From: Xylanimonas ulmi
GTDB lineage: Bacteria > Actinomycetota > Actinomycetes > Actinomycetales > Cellulomonadaceae
Assembly: GCF_004216535.1 (NCBI RefSeq)
Contig: NZ_SGWX01000001.1
Location: 3,410,001-3,474,000 of the forward strand
Direction of reading: 5' to 3'
DNA: 64,000 nt
Below are positions 22,579 to 31,378 of the stretch, one piece after another. The translations under genes were made by a program, and so were the position numbers. The notes under the pieces are model-generated. The model had not been told where the DNA came from and searched no databases. It saw only the letters and a program-made list of their open reading frames with translations. Numbering within the stretch: the stretch's first letter is position 1; each line of letters begins with the position of its first letter.

Positions 22579-24026
<1,448 letters not shown>

Positions 24027-24030
<4 letters not shown>

Positions 24031-24287
24031 CCAGGCGCGTCCAACAGCCCGTCCCCCAGCCCGTCCCACAGTCCCAGGTCGGCGAACGCGGCGAGTGACT
24101 CCGCCGCGGACAGCGGGTCCAGCAGCAGGACGGCGAACCCGTTCTGAACGAGCACGTAGTCGCCCACGGCGGCCTGGGGGAGGTAGGCCAGGCAGCACGA
24201 CGCGGATCGCCCCGCGACGTCGAGGCGCGCCGTCGGCAGCGGGCCTGGGGTGATCTCCTCGATCCGCGCCGGGATCGCGACGCACAT
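24027..24287 (-). CDS. HypC/HupF family chaperone, second copy
   Basis: The protein has 86 residues and begins MCVAIPARI, with Cys2 that in HypC carries the Fe(CN)2CO unit. The small barrel sequence ([25 protein letters not shown]) and the tail ([16 protein letters not shown]) are family-like. A separate HypC lies with hypD. This copy starts 1 base after the stop of the orphan large-subunit-like gene and is translated from GGGGGA within its end, so it is likely the dedicated chaperone of that protein. It may correspond to the HupF/HybG division of labour seen in other hydrogenase systems. Confidence 0.9.
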
Positions 24288-24288
24288 G

Positions 24289-25629
24289 TCAGGTCCCCCT
24301 CGGTACGCGTGCGTCGGTGACCGTGAGCCGCATCGTCCCGAGCGGCGCGGCGGTGCACGGCAGGCACGGGTCGGCCTCGCGCACCGCCCGTTCGAGCGCG
24401 CCCGCGGCCGCGCTACGGGCCACCGCCGCGCGCAGCAGGTCGGCCAGCCACGGCTCGTTCTGGGCCGTAGGCGTCAGGATCGTGGCGGCCCGCAGCAGCC
24501 CGTCGCCGCCTGCGACGTAGCGGTGGACCAGCAGTCCCCGCGGTCCGTCGACCCAGCCGACGCCCACGGCGCCGGCGGGCACGCCCGCGAGGGCGGCCAG
24601 GTCCACCGGGGCCCCTGGGACCACGGGGAGGGACACGTCGTCGTCGCCCAGCACCTCGGCGATGGCCTCGACCGCGGCCAGCACCATGACCGCGCGGGCC
24701 GCGCTCGCGGTGCGTGCCCCGTCGGACCAACGGGCCTGCGCGTCCGCGGCGAGCGGGGTGGTCAGCGGACCGACGCCGAGCTGGGCCGCGGGGCCGACCC
24801 GGTAACGACCGCGGTCGGCGCCCAGCGCGCGCAGGTACGGTCGCGGCGCGGGCGCGCCGGGACGCGACTCGGCGAGCACCGCGTCGAAGCGCGCGGCGGG
24901 CTCGGCCGCGTGGAGCACGCCGCCGTCGGCGGCCACCACGCGCAGGTGCGTGCCGAGCAGGTCGGGTCGGCCGTCGGCGTCGACCAACGCGACGTCGGCG
25001 CCCGTGAACGACGGGTCCGCCCCGGCGTCGCCGGCCCCGCCGCGCGCGCCGGACTCACCCCGCGCGCCGGACTGATCCAGCGCGTCGGACTGATCCAGCG
25101 CGTCGAGCGCGAGCCGGTGCGCCGCGGCCAGGGCCTCGGGCGCGGCGTGGCGCAGCGCGTCACGGGTCGCCGGCGAGACGCCCACGCGCACGCCGCCGGG
25201 CGCCGCCGTCGTCGGGAAGTGGGACTGCGCGCCCACCGCGTCGAGCGTGGATCGCGCGAACCCGGCCAGCGCGGCGAGGGCGGACCGCTCCCCGCCGACG
25301 GCGCCCGCGCGCTCGGCATGGGCCGCGACGGCCGACGCGTGGTGCAGCAGCCGCCGGATCGCGACGGCCTGTGGGGGCAACGGCCCGATCCCGGCCAGCG
25401 CCTCCAGCGCGCGCACGCCTGCGAGGTGGTGGGCGGCGGGGCACAGCCCGCACAGGCGCTCGACGAACGCGGGGACGCGTGCGATCGGGCGGCCCACGAG
25501 CAGCGGCTCGACGCGGGGCAGGTCGGCCAGCGAGAGCCGTGCGCCCGTCAGGCGTCCGTCGGCGGCCCGCTCGACGACGACGCGGACCTCGGACGGGTCG
25601 AGGAGCTCGTCGAGCACGAGGCGCGTCAC
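24289..25629 (-). CDS. Orphan [NiFe]-hydrogenase large-subunit-like protein
   Basis: The protein has about 446 residues from GTG 25629 (upstream in-frame starts give an Arg-rich, unlikely N-terminus). It keeps the L1 motif RLCGLC-PAAH (Cys60, Cys63) and the L2 cysteines in DPCLPC (Cys422, Cys425). After the last Cys comes TAAPLG instead of the usual (A/T)TH, so the histidine at the normal protease cleavage position is missing. The segment GPRGLLVHRYVAGGDG resembles group 3/4 large subunits rather than HyaB. No small subunit is nearby; a hypC copy follows and a hypA copy is divergent. It may be a HupK/HoxV-like cofactor-assembly scaffold or part of a second, incomplete hydrogenase. Function is not settled. 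Confidence 0.75.
   Translation of the reverse strand: MTRLVLDELLDPSEVRVVVERAADGRLTGARLSLADLPRVEPLLVGRPIARVPAFVERLCGLCPAAHHLAGVRALEALAGIGPLPPQAVAIRRLLHHASAVAAHAERAGAVGGERSALAALAGFARSTLDAVGAQSHFPTTAAPGGVRVGVSPATRDALRHAAPEALAAAHRLALDALDQSDALDQSGARGESGARGGAGDAGADPSFTGADVALVDADGRPDLLGTHLRVVAADGGVLHAAEPAARFDAVLAESRPGAPAPRPYLRALGADRGRYRVGPAAQLGVGPLTTPLAADAQARWSDGARTASAARAVMVLAAVEAIAEVLGDDDVSLPVVPGAPVDLAALAGVPAGAVGVGWVDGPRGLLVHRYVAGGDGLLRAATILTPTAQNEPWLADLLRAAVARSAAAGALERAVREADPCLPCTAAPLGTMRLTVTDARVPRGT
25042..25104. repeat. Degenerate 18-base tandem repeat inside the large-subunit-like gene
   Basis: Units of the type CGCGTCGGACTGATCCAG are repeated about three to four times with changes, giving the peptide repeat DALDQS-DALDQS-GARGES in the middle of the protein. 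It probably lengthens a surface loop. Confidence 0.6.
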
Positions 25630-25670
25630 CCGCAGGCGCCCGTCGCCGGGGAGCGTGTCACGATCGCCCC

Positions 25671-26117
25671 ATGCATGAGCTGAGCCTGTTGCGCGCCGTC
25701 GTCGACTCGGTGGCGCGTGTCGCCGCGCAACGCAGGGCGCGTGGCGTCGAGGCTGTGGGTCTGCGCGTCGGGACGCTCGCCAGTGCGACACCGGAGGCGC
25801 TGCGCACCGCGTGGCCGCTCGCCATCTCGGGGACGGCCGTGGCCGGGGCGCGCCTCGACATCGACGTCGTCCAGGCGGCGGTGCGCTGCGCCGAGTGCGC
25901 CAGGGACGTGCCGGTCGACCGGTTCTACGCGCTGGTCTGCCCGGTGTGCGCGACGCCGACGGGCGAGCTGGTGACGGGCCGCGAGCTCGCGGTGGCCTAT
26001 GCCGACCTCGCCGACGACGCCGCCGCCGAGAACCCTGCCGAGAACCCTGGCGACGCTGCGCTCCCTGCGCGCGACCGGCCGGCGGCCTCGTGCCCGGGTC
26101 ATGACCACCGCCGCTGA
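25671..26117 (+). CDS. HypA-like nickel incorporation protein, second copy
   Basis: The protein has 148 residues and begins MHELSLLRAVVDSV with nickel-binding His2. Zinc cysteines are CAEC and CPVC. The C-terminus is longer than in the first HypA, with a repeat (AAENPAENPG) and a His end (CPGHDHRR) that might bind metal. It is divergent from the orphan large-subunit-like gene (41-base gap) and its 3' end overlaps the convergent protease gene hyaD by 19 bases. A dedicated partner of the orphan protein is a reasonable inference. Confidence 0.9.
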   Translation: MHELSLLRAVVDSVARVAAQRRARGVEAVGLRVGTLASATPEALRTAWPLAISGTAVAGARLDIDVVQAAVRCAECARDVPVDRFYALVCPVCATPTGELVTGRELAVAYADLADDAAAENPAENPGDAALPARDRPAASCPGHDHRR

Positions 26118-26614: not shown

Positions 26615-27820
26615 TCACTCGATCGGAGGGCCGTCGACGGGTCGGGCGCCGCGGCGCACCCACACCCCACCGTTGACCATCGAGGAGACCCCGCCGTGGC
26701 GTTCGAGCGAGTCGGCGCGCACCGCGAGGTAGATGTGCATGATCACGAAGGCCCACAGCGCGAACATCAGGAGCGTGTGCGCCAGGCGCACGACGCCGAT
26801 GCCCACCCAGCCGCTCGGCGCGGCGACCAGCGCCCAGAACGGCGAGTCGACCCGTGCCAGCCCGTAGAGCATGAGCCCCGTCGCCATCTGGAGGGCGCAG
26901 GCCGCGTACACGCCGGTGTAGGCGAGTTGCTGGAGCGGGTTGTGCGACAGGTACAGCGGGCTGTGGTCCCTGATGAGCGCGTAGTGCTGCGCCACATGTC
27001 CGAGGTTGCGCAGGTCGGCGCGCGACCACAGCGGCCAGAACGAGCGCCACCGCATGGTGCGGTAACGCGAGGTGAAGGTGAGCACGAACCGGGTGGCGCC
27101 CAGCACGATCCACGCGAACCCCGCCACGAAGTGCGCCAGGCGCATGCCGCCCATGAGGAACCCGGAGGCGGCGCCGTCGACCGGGGTGGGGCCGAAGAAC
27201 GGGTCCATGACGTAGTAGCCCGTGGCGCTCAGCACGCCGATCAGGGCGACGTTGGCCCAGTGCTGCAGGCGCAGCGCGGCCGGCCACAAGGCCACGCGGG
27301 TCCAGCCGCTCTCGGCGGCGCCGGGGTCACTGGTGTCATGCGGCCCCTGCGGGGTCACCGCGACGAGTCCCTGCAGGTGGAAGCGGCCGACAACGCCGTC
27401 GCTGACCGCGGCGGCGGCGACGGCGAGCGGGCGCTCGCCGCGCACGAACGCGCGGTCGGCGTTGCGGCGCACGAGGGATCGCTCCTGCCGGGTGCTGATC
27501 GAGGTGGCCAACACCTCGCGCACGGCCCCGCGCATGACGACGACGTCGCGCGTCGCGCCGCTCGGCAGCGCCAGTTCGCGCACCCGCACCAGCGTGTAGC
27601 GCCGTTGGGGCGTGGCCGGGTCGACGTCGTCGGCGCCGACCCACGGGACGGGGATCTCGTGGTGGTCGGACTCGAGCGCGGCGGCGGCGGCGCGCACCAC
27701 CGGGTCGTCGCCGCCCGGGGCCGCGGCGGCGGCGAGCGCGAGCAGTCGCCCATGACTGAGGCCGTCGCTGCTGTGGATCTCCCCGACGTGCAGGACGGCG
27801 GCGGGAGACGGCGCGCTCAT
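26615..27820 (-). CDS. hyaC: Hydrogenase cytochrome b subunit with an extra N-terminal P-type-ATPase-like domain
   Basis: The protein has 401 residues, against roughly 230 usual for HyaC. Residues about 175-390 form the four-helix di-haem cytochrome b that passes electrons from the hydrogenase to quinone; likely haem His lie in RLQHW, RLAHF, RLAHTLL and IMHIYL. Residues about 10-165 are soluble and unlike any HyaC. In order they show HVGE, LLALAAAA, DDPVVRAA, a basic stretch before VVVMRGAVREVLA, then RGERPLAVA and GRFHLQGLVAVTP. This is the order of blocks in the nucleotide-binding domain of P-type (H+-type) ATPases, without the DKTGT phosphorylation motif. The ATG overlaps the hyaB stop (ATGA). 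Confidence 0.88.
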   Translation of the reverse strand: MSAPSPAAVLHVGEIHSSDGLSHGRLLALAAAAAPGGDDPVVRAAAAALESDHHEIPVPWVGADDVDPATPQRRYTLVRVRELALPSGATRDVVVMRGAVREVLATSISTRQERSLVRRNADRAFVRGERPLAVAAAAVSDGVVGRFHLQGLVAVTPQGPHDTSDPGAAESGWTRVALWPAALRLQHWANVALIGVLSATGYYVMDPFFGPTPVDGAASGFLMGGMRLAHFVAGFAWIVLGATRFVLTFTSRYRTMRWRSFWPLWSRADLRNLGHVAQHYALIRDHSPLYLSHNPLQQLAYTGVYAACALQMATGLMLYGLARVDSPFWALVAAPSGWVGIGVVRLAHTLLMFALWAFVIMHIYLAVRADSLERHGGVSSMVNGGVWVRRGARPVDGPPIE

Positions 27821-29559
27821 GGCCCCACGACCGGGGGCCGGGCGTCGCCCAGGTCGAGCACGTGCACGGCGCACGACATGCACGGGTCGAAGGAGTGGAT
27901 GGTGCGCAGCGGCTCGAGGGGCCGGGCCGGGTCGCGCAGCGGGTGGAGCCCGTCACCGGCGAGCGACTCCTCGTAGGGGCCCTGCCGCCCGCCGACGTCG
28001 CGCCCGCCGGCGAGCCAGGTCGTGGGCACCACCGCCTGGTAGCGGGCGACCTTGCCGTCCTCGATCGTGACCCAGTGGCTGAGGTTGCCGCGCGCGACCT
28101 CGACGAACGAATAGCCCTCGGCTGTGGCCGGCCAGGTCTTCGGCTCCCAGCGGGAGTTGTCGAACACGTCGAGGTCGCCTTGCGCGATATTGGCCACGAG
28201 TTCGGGGAAGGTCACCTCGGCGAGCGTCTCGGCCGAGACCATCGCCTCGATCGCCCGGGCGAGGGTGCGGCCCGCCGTCGAGTTGAGTTGGCCGACGGTG
28301 ATGCCGAGCTGCCGGGCGGCGTCGTCGACCAGCTCCGTCATGCGGGCGTGCCCCTGGGCGTAGGCGAGCAGCACGCGTGCGACCGGGCCCACCTGGATGG
28401 GTCGGCCGTCGTAGCGCGGGGCCTTGCACCACGTGTACCGCTCGGAGTCCGCCAGCCAGTCGAAGGGCGGCTTCGGGCCGGTGTACCGCGGCGTCGTCTC
28501 GCCCTGTGCGGGCGGCAGGCCGACGTCGTCGCCGTCCTCGTAGGCGTACCAGGCGGACGCGATGTACTCGGCGATCTTGGTCGGGTCGAACGGGTGCACG
28601 GTGGACAGGTCGCCGTCGAGCAGCACGCCGGGCTTGACCGCGGTGTGGGCCGTCGTGGTCCGGGCCGTGTTCGGGTCGCCGCCGAACGTCGCCCCCGCCA
28701 GCCCGACCGCGAGGTAGTTCGGCTGGGCGGCGCCGATGTCGAAGTAGTCGCGGTAGGCGCCCATGATCGCGATCGCGTCGGGCAGGTAGCAGTCCCGCAC
28801 GAACTGGCGCGTCTGGTCGACCCAGTCGGTGATCTGGTCGATCTGGACCTGGTTGATCGACTCCGAGCGGTCGGGGTCGATGGTGCAGGCCATGCCACCC
28901 ACGAGGAAGTTGGGGTGCGGGTTCTTGCCGCCGAACACCGTGTGGATGCGGATCATCGACCGCTGGAACTCCAGCGCGTCCAGGTAGTGGGCGACGGCCA
29001 TGAGGTTCGCCTCTGGCGGCAGGCGGTAGTCCGGGTGATCCCAGTAGCCGCCCGTGAAGATCGACAGCTGGCCCGAGTCCAGGAGTTGCCGGACGGTGTC
29101 GCGCACCTCGGTCATCCGTTCGAGCGTGTTGCCCCTCCAGGTCGAGCCGATGGCGCGCGCGAACGCGACGGCCGCGGCCGGGTCGGCGGTGGCGGCCGAG
29201 GGGACGTGGACCCAGTCGAGCGCGTGCAGGTGGTAGAAGTGGATGACGTGGTCCTGGACCTCCTGCGAGGCCAGCACGATGTCGCGGATGAGCCGAGCCT
29301 GCGTGGGCGGGTGGGAGCCGATCGCGTGCTCGACGGCGACGACCGAGGCGATGGCGTGCACCGAGGTGCACACGCCGCAGATGCGCTGCACGAACACCCA
29401 GGCGTCGCGCGGGTCGCGGTCCTGCACGATGGTCTCGATGCCGCGGAACTGGGTGGTCTCGCTCCAGGCCCGGGCGATGGTCTCGCCCTGTGTCTCGAGC
29501 TCGACGCGCAGGTGGCCCTCGATGCGGGTGATGGGGTCGATGACGACGCGGGTCGACAT
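27817..29559 (-). CDS. hyaB: [NiFe]-hydrogenase large subunit
   Basis: The catalytic subunit holds the NiFe(CN)2CO centre. It has 580 residues. The N-terminus is VVIDPITRIEGHLRVE. Nickel ligands are Cys61 and Cys64 in RICGVCTSVH and Cys560 and Cys563 in DPCMSCAVH. The last 14 residues after this His are the peptide removed by HyaD. The start ATG has GAGGAGGAG upstream inside the end of hyaA. Sequence and partner subunits fit a group 1 respiratory uptake enzyme on the outer face of the membrane, exported together with the Tat-carrying small subunit. Confidence 0.96.
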   Translation of the reverse strand: MSTRVVIDPITRIEGHLRVELETQGETIARAWSETTQFRGIETIVQDRDPRDAWVFVQRICGVCTSVHAIASVVAVEHAIGSHPPTQARLIRDIVLASQEVQDHVIHFYHLHALDWVHVPSAATADPAAAVAFARAIGSTWRGNTLERMTEVRDTVRQLLDSGQLSIFTGGYWDHPDYRLPPEANLMAVAHYLDALEFQRSMIRIHTVFGGKNPHPNFLVGGMACTIDPDRSESINQVQIDQITDWVDQTRQFVRDCYLPDAIAIMGAYRDYFDIGAAQPNYLAVGLAGATFGGDPNTARTTTAHTAVKPGVLLDGDLSTVHPFDPTKIAEYIASAWYAYEDGDDVGLPPAQGETTPRYTGPKPPFDWLADSERYTWCKAPRYDGRPIQVGPVARVLLAYAQGHARMTELVDDAARQLGITVGQLNSTAGRTLARAIEAMVSAETLAEVTFPELVANIAQGDLDVFDNSRWEPKTWPATAEGYSFVEVARGNLSHWVTIEDGKVARYQAVVPTTWLAGGRDVGGRQGPYEESLAGDGLHPLRDPARPLEPLRTIHSFDPCMSCAVHVLDLGDARPPVVGP

Positions 29560-29561
29560 GG

Positions 29562-30806
29562 TCACTCCTCCTCGGTGGAGCGGGATGGGAGGGCGTCGTG
29601 GCGCACCGACGGGTCGGGGAGCCAGACCTTCTCGCCGAGGGCGTCCAGCGGCGCGCCGTCGGCCCGTCTGCGGGCGGCCGTCCGGCGCAGCGCCGTGAGG
29701 CCCGCGTGGGCCGCCACGCCGGCCGCCGTCGCGCCGACCAGCCCCCAGCCGACGGCCTCGGCGGTGGCCTCGACGCCCAGCCCGGCGACGTCGGGCAGGG
29801 TTTGGTAGAAGGGCGTGAACCGGTCGAAGAACCGCCTCTCGGTGCAGCCGACACACGGGTGCCCGGCCCCGATGGGCCAGCTCGTGTGCTGGTTCCACTG
29901 GATGATCGGGCAGGCGGAGAACGTGCTGGGACCCTTGCAGCCGACGTCGTACAGGCACCAGCCCATGCGCGCGGCCTCGTCGTCGAAGGTCCGCACGAAC
30001 TGGCCGGCGTCGAAGTGCGGGCGGCGCGGGCACGAGTCGTGCACGCGCTGGTCGTAGGCGAACAGGGGCCGGCCCTCGCCGTCGACGGCGGGCAGGTCGT
30101 CGTGGGTCAGGATGTAGGAGACGGCGGCCGTGATGACCTCGCCGATGGGTGGGCAGCCCGCGATGTTGACGATCGGCTTGTCGGTGATGATCTGGTCGAC
30201 GCCGACCGCGTCCGTCGGGTTGGGGCGTGACGCCTGCACCGAGCCCCAGACCGCGCAGGCGCCGACGGCGAGGATCGCCGAGGCGTGCTCGGCCGACTCG
30301 CGCAGCACCTGCTCGGCCGACTTGCCGCCGATGGTGCAGTACGCGCCGCCCTCGCCCCGCGGCACCGAGCCGTTGACGACGAGGATGTGGTCGGACGCGT
30401 TGGTCTCGTCGAGCGCGCGGTTGGCGGCGTCGCCCGCGGCCGCCATGACGAGTTCGTTGTAGTTGACCGACAGCAGGCGCAGCACGGCCTCCTCGATCGT
30501 GGCGCCGCCCGAGCGCAGCGTCGACTCCACGCATCCGGTGCACTCCTGGAGCTGGAGCCAGACGACGGGGGGCTTGGTCACGGCGGAGAGCCGGTCCGCG
30601 ATGAGCTCGGCGGTGATCGGCTGGGCCGACGCCGGGCGCGCGAGGGCGGCGTCTCCCATCGCGAAGACGCCCGCGAGGACGCCGCAGAAGGCGAGGAAGT
30701 CGCGGCGGCTGACGCCGACATGGGCGAGGTTGCCTCCGAGCGTCGGCGCCCTCCAGCGGCTGGCCTCGACCGGTGTGGCTCCGGTGGGCGGCGGCAGAGA
30801 CGTCAT
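29562..30806 (-). CDS. hyaA: [NiFe]-hydrogenase small subunit, Tat-exported and membrane-anchored
   Basis: The iron-sulfur subunit has 414 residues. The N-terminus has a twin-arginine signal, SRRDFLAF (residues 33-40), then a hydrophobic stretch and the AxA-like end ARPASA. Cluster ligands are visible in ECTGCVES, GACAVWGS and GCPP for the proximal cluster. DSCPRRPHF, GWCLYDVGCKGP and CPIIQWNQ...HPCVGC supply the medial and distal clusters. A C-terminal hydrophobic helix (GWGLVGATAAGVAAHAG) anchors it, followed by a basic cytoplasmic tail. ATG 30806 has AAGGGG upstream. It is the first gene of hyaABCD. Confidence 0.96.
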   Translation of the reverse strand: MTSLPPPTGATPVEASRWRAPTLGGNLAHVGVSRRDFLAFCGVLAGVFAMGDAALARPASAQPITAELIADRLSAVTKPPVVWLQLQECTGCVESTLRSGGATIEEAVLRLLSVNYNELVMAAAGDAANRALDETNASDHILVVNGSVPRGEGGAYCTIGGKSAEQVLRESAEHASAILAVGACAVWGSVQASRPNPTDAVGVDQIITDKPIVNIAGCPPIGEVITAAVSYILTHDDLPAVDGEGRPLFAYDQRVHDSCPRRPHFDAGQFVRTFDDEAARMGWCLYDVGCKGPSTFSACPIIQWNQHTSWPIGAGHPCVGCTERRFFDRFTPFYQTLPDVAGLGVEATAEAVGWGLVGATAAGVAAHAGLTALRRTAARRRADGAPLDALGEKVWLPDPSVRHDALPSRSTEEE

Positions 30807-31090
30807 CGTCTGACCCCTTCGTGGCTGAGGTGGTGACGGCAATCTAGGAAGGAAGCGCGGGCGGGCCGCGTCCGCGTCGTGCCACGTTCACCGCGCGGCG
30901 CGGATCGTGCGACGGCGAGGCCGTGCTGCGAGGCAGTGCGGCGAGCCGGCGGCCGAGGCGAACTGACATATGGATGCTGTTCGTCCGGATCGATGCGCTG
31001 CTGGGCGATCGTGACGCGTCGCGCGCGGCGGGCCGCGGGCGGCCCGGGGCCACGATGTCCCGGTTCACTGTGGAGCGGGAGGACGTGCGG
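30807..31090. promoter_or_regulatory. Divergent promoter region of the hydrogenase structural and hypCDE operons
   Basis: This 284-base gap separates hyaA (minus) from hypC (plus) and must hold both promoters. It is less regular than coding sequence and contains the somewhat AT-richer segments CAATCTAGGAAGG (around 30840) and GACATATGGATG (around 30964). I found no clear DosR-like box or strong -35/-10 pair. Confidence 0.4.
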
Positions 31091-31378
31091 ATGTGCCTCG
31101 GCATCCCCGGCAGGATCGTGCGCGTCTGGGACGACCAGGGCACGCGCATGGCCGACGTCGACTTCGGCGGCGCGACCAAGGACGTGTGCCTGGCCTACCT
31201 CCCGCACGCGCGCGCCGGCCAGTACACCATCGTGCACGCGGGGTTCGGGCTGACCCTCGTGGACGAGGCCTCCGCGGTGGAGTCGCTGCGGGTCTTCCAC
31301 GAGCTCGGCATGCTGGAGGACGAGCTCGGCATCCCCTCACGCGCCGGGTCGCCGGGCCGCGTCTCGGCGGCCGGGTGA
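31091..31378 (+). CDS. hypC: Hydrogenase assembly chaperone HypC
   Basis: The protein has 95 residues beginning MCLGIPGRI with the essential Cys2; this decides the start at 31091, which is preceded by GGGAGGA. HypC binds iron with HypD while cyanide and CO are attached and carries the unit to the large subunit. Its tail ([21 protein letters not shown]) is typical. It stands directly before hypD and hypE, so this is the main HypC, in contrast to the copy at 24027. Confidence 0.95.

Follow-up and report, generated by a model that had tools for sequence, protein, structure and literature searches.

The window analysed here, a stretch of 64,000 nucleotides of the Xylanimonas ulmi genome (contig NZ_SGWX01000001.1, positions 3,410,001 to 3,474,000), holds a [NiFe]-hydrogenase cluster in which the structural genes follow the order hyaA-hyaB-hyaC-hyaD on the minus strand (all coordinates below are those of the window):

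29562 to 30842, minus strand: hyaA, small subunit, with a Tat signal (SRRDFLAF); TIGR00391, 396.1 bits, cut-off 179.5
27817 to 29559, minus strand: hyaB, large subunit, with the C-terminal end DPCMSCAVH...; PF00374, E = 1.4e-200 on 549 of 580 residues
26615 to 27820, minus strand: hyaC, cytochrome b subunit with an N-terminal captured domain, 401 amino acids; Pfam and TIGR02125
26099 to 26608, minus strand: hyaD, maturation protease; PF01750 (HycI), E = 2e-27

The Tat signal of HyaA is also recognized by TIGR01409 (17.6 bits against a cut-off of 16.7), and the true start of hyaA may lie a little inside the frame listed. hyaB starts near 29559, and the ATG of hyaC overlaps the stop codon of hyaB (ATGA, 27817-27820). 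Around hyaABCD are found hypF, hypB, two copies of hypC, hypD, an AIRS-type hypE and a nickel transporter. The Tat signal, the cytochrome b and the profile matches, taken together with knowledge of the family, indicate a group 1-type uptake [NiFe] hydrogenase; the enzyme was not classified with HydDB.

The cluster has further features of note. The two HypC-type chaperone genes are at 24027-24287 (minus strand) and 30923-31378 (plus strand), and two apparent hypA frames, named by reading only, lie near 21.3-21.7 kb and 25.7-26.1 kb. The maturation cluster also contains, between hypB and one of the hypC copies, a family 1 glycosidase gene on the plus strand (22579-24030; PF00232, E = 3e-153). 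The minus strand at 24289-25791 codes for a 500-residue protein with a DPCLPC end that matches PF00374 over residues 94-158 only (E = 1.6e-10); judging from its sequence it is probably a large-subunit-like paralogue or an assembly protein, presumably HupK-like, and a similar frame is also present downstream of the fusion in another locus (L004).

HyaC is the unusual member of the cluster. Its Pfam match to Ni_hydr_CYTB (PF01292, E = 1.6e-24) begins only at residue 179, and residues 179-384 match TIGR02125 with 125.4 bits, above the curated cut-off of 121.5; the protein therefore carries about 170 extra residues at its N-terminus. An earlier, sequence-only reading of this DNA had put the excess at about 165 residues and called it soluble, and both statements agree with what we find: in the full-length model the N-terminal part consists of the strands and helices of a globular, and hence by prediction soluble, domain, and the first membrane helix is at residues 181-204. 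The same reading had placed the domain at 27320-27795, which is essentially right, the domain proper occupying 27347-27799. Three parts of HyaC can be delimited:

27347 to 27799, minus strand: N domain of the P-type ATPase kind, residues 8-158 (about 150 residues); AlphaFold, structure match to Pma1, profile matches of relatives
27311 to 27346, minus strand: linker, residues 159-170; mostly low confidence, with pLDDT below 50 at residues 162-169
26618 to 27310, minus strand: cytochrome b part, residues 171-401; Pfam, TIGR02125, structure match to 1kqf_C

The membrane part is an ordinary [NiFe]-hydrogenase cytochrome b. Residues H187, H230, H293, H348 and H362 are invariant in 25 of 25 fusions, in keeping with conserved histidines for two haems in four helices, the choice of haem ligands among them being inferred from the family alone; H187 follows the captured domain at a distance of about 30 residues. 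Lys and Arg residues number seven in the loop between the second and third transmembrane helices and four in the C-terminal tail, as against zero and one in the other two loops. This distribution predicts that the N-terminus, and with it the captured domain, is in the cytoplasm, on the side opposite to the Tat-exported HyaAB. The linker itself is not positively charged (one Lys or Arg, three Asp or Glu).

The extra domain had been read as the N domain of a P-type ATPase, nearest to those of H+-ATPases, on the basis of a series of motif blocks; these blocks are present in HyaC in the order given and are conserved in its relatives. The window's own sequence gives weak profile evidence. Against TIGR01647 (plasma-membrane H+ P-type ATPase) it reaches E = 0.081 over residues 90-164; Pfam returned no relevant match in the domain, only stray weak ones; and a phmmer search of the PDB with the window's own domain found no P-type ATPase, the eight matches at E ≤ 10 all being DNA polymerases (best, 1.5). 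The family as a whole is more informative. In the domain alignment, made of 19 fusion rows (L009, which ends at a contig end, was omitted), eight of the 19 domains match TIGR01647 at E ≤ 1, and this is the family matched by most members. When ten members were scanned singly six matched TIGR01647, the best of them colinearly through the N domain: L012 at 4.6e-6 (residues 21-155 on model positions 314-437), L013 at 8.5e-5, L022 at 5.9e-4 and L016 at 0.01, followed by weak matches of L011 (0.046) and L017 (0.19). No P-type ATPase was matched by L006, L010, L019 or L023 in these scans, so that six of the ten miss an E of 0.02. Colinear profile similarity over the domain is thus met, weakly for the window's own sequence and significantly for some relatives.

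Profile-profile comparison was done with hhalign. The domain family aligned with 31 pump N domains (P2/P3) at a probability of 96.8 (E = 3e-10, 137 columns), with 22 P2-like N domains alone at 96.0 and with nine P3-like ones alone at 92.9; the names of the P2, P3 and P1B sets were assigned by eye, because no pump in them passes the TIGR01647 cut-off. As controls, the P domains of the P2/P3 sets gave a probability of 0.1-0.3, and the best of 50 column shuffles, compared with the nine-row P3 set only, gave 0.9. P1B N domains reached 92.7, though the aligned part lies at the start of the domain and is no more than 45 columns long. Two small N domains, L076 and L080, taken together as one set, scored 1.3.

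The predicted fold points the same way. AlphaFold, run on HyaC residues 1-165 with the 19-row alignment, produced a model (pLDDT 90.7, pTM 0.84) with the element order strand-helix-helix-strand-strand-helix-helix-strand-strand, which meets, on a predicted model, the expectation of an N-domain fold with an antiparallel sheet and helix pairs. A Foldseek search of the PDB with this model gave 42 matches at E ≤ 0.001, led by SPCA1, Pma1 and AHA2 (5ksd); 41 are P-type ATPases by title, while the title of the remaining entry, 9byb, says no more than 'a membrane transport protein'. Realignment of the candidates put Pma1 first (Z 17.1), with 5ksd at 15.4 and the N domains of CopA and KdpB at 14.4-15.1. 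In the full-length model, residues 8-158 superpose on Pma1 386-535 (Z 17.0, rmsd 2.3, 141 residues) and residues 171-401 on 1kqf_C (Z 13.8, rmsd 3.9, 194 residues). This model is less sure (pLDDT 78.6, pTM 0.56) and, given so low a pTM, does not define how the domain packs on the cytochrome.

One set of results could be taken to mean something else. The 19-row profile found 13 PDB sequences at E ≤ 10, of which ten are P-type ATPases, none better than 0.011; the best are Cu-ATPases, matched by profile positions 83-128 (E = 0.011-0.02) in what is, by reading, the end of the P domain. In hhalign, P1B P-domain ends were matched at a probability of 90.4 over 48 columns. Together with the lack of a relevant Pfam match, this would suit the view that the motif order arose by chance in an alanine-rich sequence, or that the segment derives from the end of the P domain of a P1B heavy-metal pump. 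The N-domain match, however, spans nearly the whole domain, the P domains of the P2/P3 sets are hardly matched at all, and it is the modelled fold, that of an N domain with Z 17 to Pma1, which decides between the two similarities; we consider this view very improbable. A chance order was discarded in view of the profile and fold evidence, and a P1B P-domain origin of residues about 90-128 was rejected because no more than 48 columns are matched and the model has the fold of an N domain. Residues 90-128 (27437-27553; DVVVMRG..VL..ISR..R.L.RNA) do resemble the P-domain end of heavy-metal pumps, a likeness that is probably due to convergence.

Profile, profile-profile and structure comparisons therefore agree, and support the assignment of the N-terminal domain of HyaC as a P-type ATPase N domain, nearest to those of H+-ATPases; the class of the donor pump is not resolved by a tree. 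The sequence-only reading would have been refuted by the absence of any profile or structural similarity to such N domains, or by a different well-known domain at this place, and neither was the case. It had also noted that the phosphorylation motif DKTGT and the P and A domains are missing. Indeed, there is no DKTGT in the 401 residues of HyaC, no P-type ATPase family is matched in Pfam, and the P domain, the A domain and the transport helices are lacking. HyaC is not itself a P-type ATPase, that is, a transport enzyme.

The search was also run in the reverse direction. Among 396 genomes of the order, the fusion-domain profile had a match at E ≤ 1e-5 in 15; 11 of these carry the fusion, which in one (G605) is split by contig ends. 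The other four matches (E = 6.6e-7 to 1.5e-6) are in frames of 742 and 907 residues, all four with DKTGT. The best match outside the fusions, L125, scores 1049.7 bits against TIGR01647 (cut-off 615.5) and is a genuine H+-ATPase; its N domain is matched over profile positions 3-132 of 154. With L126, a Cu-type pump, and L127 the match is limited to the beginning of the N domain. In a phylum sample (396 genomes, E ≤ 0.01) there were weak matches in 33 genomes besides X. ulmi; 19 of the 29 loci obtained for them hold a DKTGT frame, not confirmed in each case as the matched frame. The set of 53 pumps used for hmmsearch includes loci picked by the same profile, only L054-L083 having been picked otherwise; of these, L071, L059 and L054 passed the inclusion threshold.

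Full-length homologues of HyaC are present in three of 98 relative genomes besides its own, at 76, 53 and 50% identity, and conservation of the extra domain is, as judged from these sequences, well beyond chance. The fusion was then sought more widely, as had been proposed for other actinobacterial hya operons. A scan that covered 84,980 species with one genome each, and that could detect only what its two peptide patterns match, yielded 18 loci: five in Bifidobacteriaceae, ten in Propionibacteriaceae, one labelled 'Actinomycetes', one in Cellulomonadaceae and one in Cellulomonas denverensis. L006 and L022 among them lie on contigs that also supplied two of the three relative-genome homologues, and 17 of the 18 are from metagenome-assembled genomes, the sample codes of which look to us like a termite-gut series. 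The end of hyaB lies directly upstream of the fusion in all 18 named loci and a hyaD motif downstream in 17, the eighteenth running off its contig; a hyaC encoded beside the hydrogenase large subunit is thus a feature of the family.

In the order, a related cytochrome b was detected at E ≤ 1e-8 in 15 of 392 genomes; the 11 strong ones (E < 1e-120) are in the same 11 genomes that have the domain, and the remaining four, three with E about 1e-38 and a weak one, are without it. Nor was the domain found at E ≤ 10 in 33 other cytochrome rows from the phylum and the order (L085-L113, L140-L143), of which L143 is probably not a hydrogenase cytochrome. The nearest domain-less cytochromes are L140, L141 and L142 (family f15) and L085; by eye, these have roughly 30-45 unrelated N-terminal residues after the end of hyaB. 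In a maximum-likelihood tree of 24 fusions and 29 plain cytochromes the fusions are on one branch (100/99), recovered in 100% of 200 bootstrap trees. This 53-row tree leaves out four long-branched plain rows (L143, L091, L104, L111) and L129, and the long row L086 may still attract. In a 58-row tree the very long and doubtful plain row L143 falls inside the fusions, so that two changes are needed, and only 20% of the bootstrap trees show a single change. The simplest reading of these sequence trees is that the domain was gained once, and no loss was seen among the sampled rows.

Conservation within the domain was assessed in 25 distinct fusions, 24 of them with a complete domain. L114, L115 and L118 duplicate other rows and were taken out. 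L004, L005 and L117, which stem from the contigs of L006 and L022, were left aside, as were further copies of the window; L124, a domain alone at a contig end that is apparently the same as that of L009, is absent, and L129, apparently the other half of the L124 gene in G605, was kept as a partial row. Twelve positions of the domain never vary: L29, A30, A31, D39, D92, R97, G98, R130, L132, A135, A137 and G151. Three sites among them fall on pump motifs:

27704 to 27706, minus strand: D39 of the DP motif, corresponding to DPID in H+-ATPases; unchanged in 24 of 24, in register with DDPID of L125
27527 to 27532, minus strand: R97-G98, at K-G of KGAP; invariant in 25 of 25, aligned with KG
27431 to 27433, minus strand: R130, counterpart of the Arg in the pump block G.R.L.VA; unchanged in 25 of 25

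D39 aligns with the first D of DPID, and L132 falls in the G.R.L.VA block in the alignment with pumps. The equivalents of D39, R97, G98, R130 and L132 are, we take it, ATP-site positions in P-type ATPases. These equivalences rest on sequence alignment with the ATP-site residues of the pumps (SERCA E442, F487, K492, K515, G516, R560 and L562), without mapping in three dimensions. Five of the seven pocket-equivalent positions are invariant, for which P is about 2e-5 if invariants were placed at random; the test is post hoc and depends on the list of pocket residues assumed. The Lys of KGAP, by contrast, is not kept, being Arg in 25 of 25 fusions, and neither is the adenine-stacking Phe, the counterpart of which is A69 or V66 depending on the alignment (the V66 column has Phe in 6 of 24, the A69 column is non-aromatic in 19 of 19); the Y75 column is aromatic or His in 24 of 24. 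Both residues are features of the P2, P3 and Kdp classes and not of the whole superfamily, the P1B members being without the KGAP Lys. In KdpB the docked nucleotide site is formed by Phe377, Ser384 and Lys395, according to PMC6255902. In the ten closest pairs of fusions (overlapping, and none including the window's own gene), dN/dS is 0.18-0.29 for the domain and 0.06-0.22 for the cytochrome. The captured domain is under purifying selection, but is less constrained and evolves faster than the cytochrome.

Nucleotide binding by the HyaC domain is, on these alignments, plausible; it is unproven, and there are no binding data. The pocket-equivalent residues that are kept, the predicted cytosolic place and the purifying selection speak for sensing; loss of the adenine-stacking Phe and the change of the KGAP Lys to Arg leave it open. 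Cellular ATP is in the millimolar range. Dissociation constants of isolated N domains for ATP, as given in PMC5089723, are 0.7-2.4 mM for SERCA, 1.4 mM for KdpB and 5-25 mM for the Na,K-ATPase. From this and the predicted place of the domain we favour a role as a non-hydrolysing adenylate gauge: the N domain of HyaC would be a weak, millimolar sensor of ATP or ADP that modulates the passage of electrons from H2 to menaquinone. Both binding and gating, the function already suggested by the sequence-only reading, are inferred, and our confidence in this proposal stops somewhat short of even. In this mechanism, the captured domain would sit on the cytosolic face, beside the haem and the quinone end of cytochrome b; it would bind ATP or ADP weakly and without hydrolysis; its occupancy would alter the ease with which electrons pass from H2 to menaquinone; and H2 oxidation might thereby follow the energy state of the cell. 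That a respiratory hydrogenase is directly gated by ATP/ADP in this manner, with an N domain freed from its pump as the allosteric, non-hydrolysing gauge, we regard as possible, if rather doubtful.

The reading ranked next is that the domain does descend from the N domain of a P-type ATPase but has ceased to be a nucleotide sensor and become a structural or docking module, which might for instance keep HyaC in a supercomplex or bind a maturation or partner protein on the cytosolic side. The same two replaced residues and the faster evolution of the domain speak for such a module, and no ATP binding was seen with the isolated N domains of HMA6 and HMA8, both P1B pumps (PMC5089723). It does not readily account for the invariant residues D39, R97, G98, R130 and L132 on pocket-equivalent sites, which exceed random expectation, even if some of them may be structural. 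We take a structural or docking role to be a real possibility without thinking it probable. It could also be that the old ATP pocket now takes some other small ligand that regulates the hydrogenase, for example a different nucleotide, NAD(P)H, a guanosine alarmone or some phosphorylated metabolite. Two invariant Arg residues at what we take to be phosphate-side positions, combined with a changed Phe on the presumed adenine side, would fit such a ligand, but there is no direct evidence for any, and we think it unlikely.

To our knowledge, no N domain of this kind is known outside the P-type ATPases themselves. No description of a fusion between such a domain and a hydrogenase was found in the open-access literature, outside which many subscription papers remain, so that this is not proof of absence. 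An [FeFe] hydrogenase has been described in termite-associated Bifidobacteriaceae (PMC11707648), and the main text does not contain the terms 'cytochrome b', 'P-type' or 'HyaC'. The parts are known; their combination, in which a hydrogenase of group 1 type has co-opted a domain of a pump, was not found described in the open-access literature searched. Here the N domain sits in a redox complex and has been kept across a clade. The link between energy charge and H2 respiration is usually ascribed to transcription or to substrate supply; if adenylate binding by the HyaC domain is true, there would be a direct link within one polypeptide. Even without a ligand, the fusion is a clear example of part of a pump being taken into service in another setting, and it marks a distinct lineage of actinobacterial hydrogenases, so far seen mostly in metagenome-assembled genomes.

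Among known systems the N domain of the plasma-membrane H+-ATPases (P3A; Pma1, AHA2; TIGR01647) is closest to the captured domain. Fold and element order are the same (in the full-length model, Z 17.0 to Pma1 and 15.8 to 5ksd), the relatives of HyaC give colinear profile matches, and the DP, [KR]G and G.R.L motifs of the H+-ATPase L125 are in register with the HyaC domain. Unlike these pumps, HyaC is devoid of DKTGT, of P and A domains and of transport helices, is attached to a cytochrome b, has Arg in place of the KGAP Lys and has not kept the FDP-type Phe. The N domains of KdpB and of P1B pumps (CopA, HMA8) share the fold and the small size (Z about 13-15), whereas their sequence matches are weaker or partial, those of P1B being confined to 45 columns at the start; the HP motif of P1B corresponds to DP in the HyaC domain. 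With the HyaC of group 1 [NiFe] hydrogenases (TIGR02125, PF01292) the protein shares a match above the cut-off over residues 179-384 and the gene order hyaA-hyaB-hyaC-hyaD, and differs by the roughly 170 additional N-terminal residues. The gamma subunit of formate dehydrogenase N (1kqf_C) superposes on HyaC residues 171-401 and is without the extra domain. That subunit has its N-terminus, as well as its inner haem and its quinone site, on the cytosolic side, where a haem ligand at the end of the first helix lies close to the quinone site.
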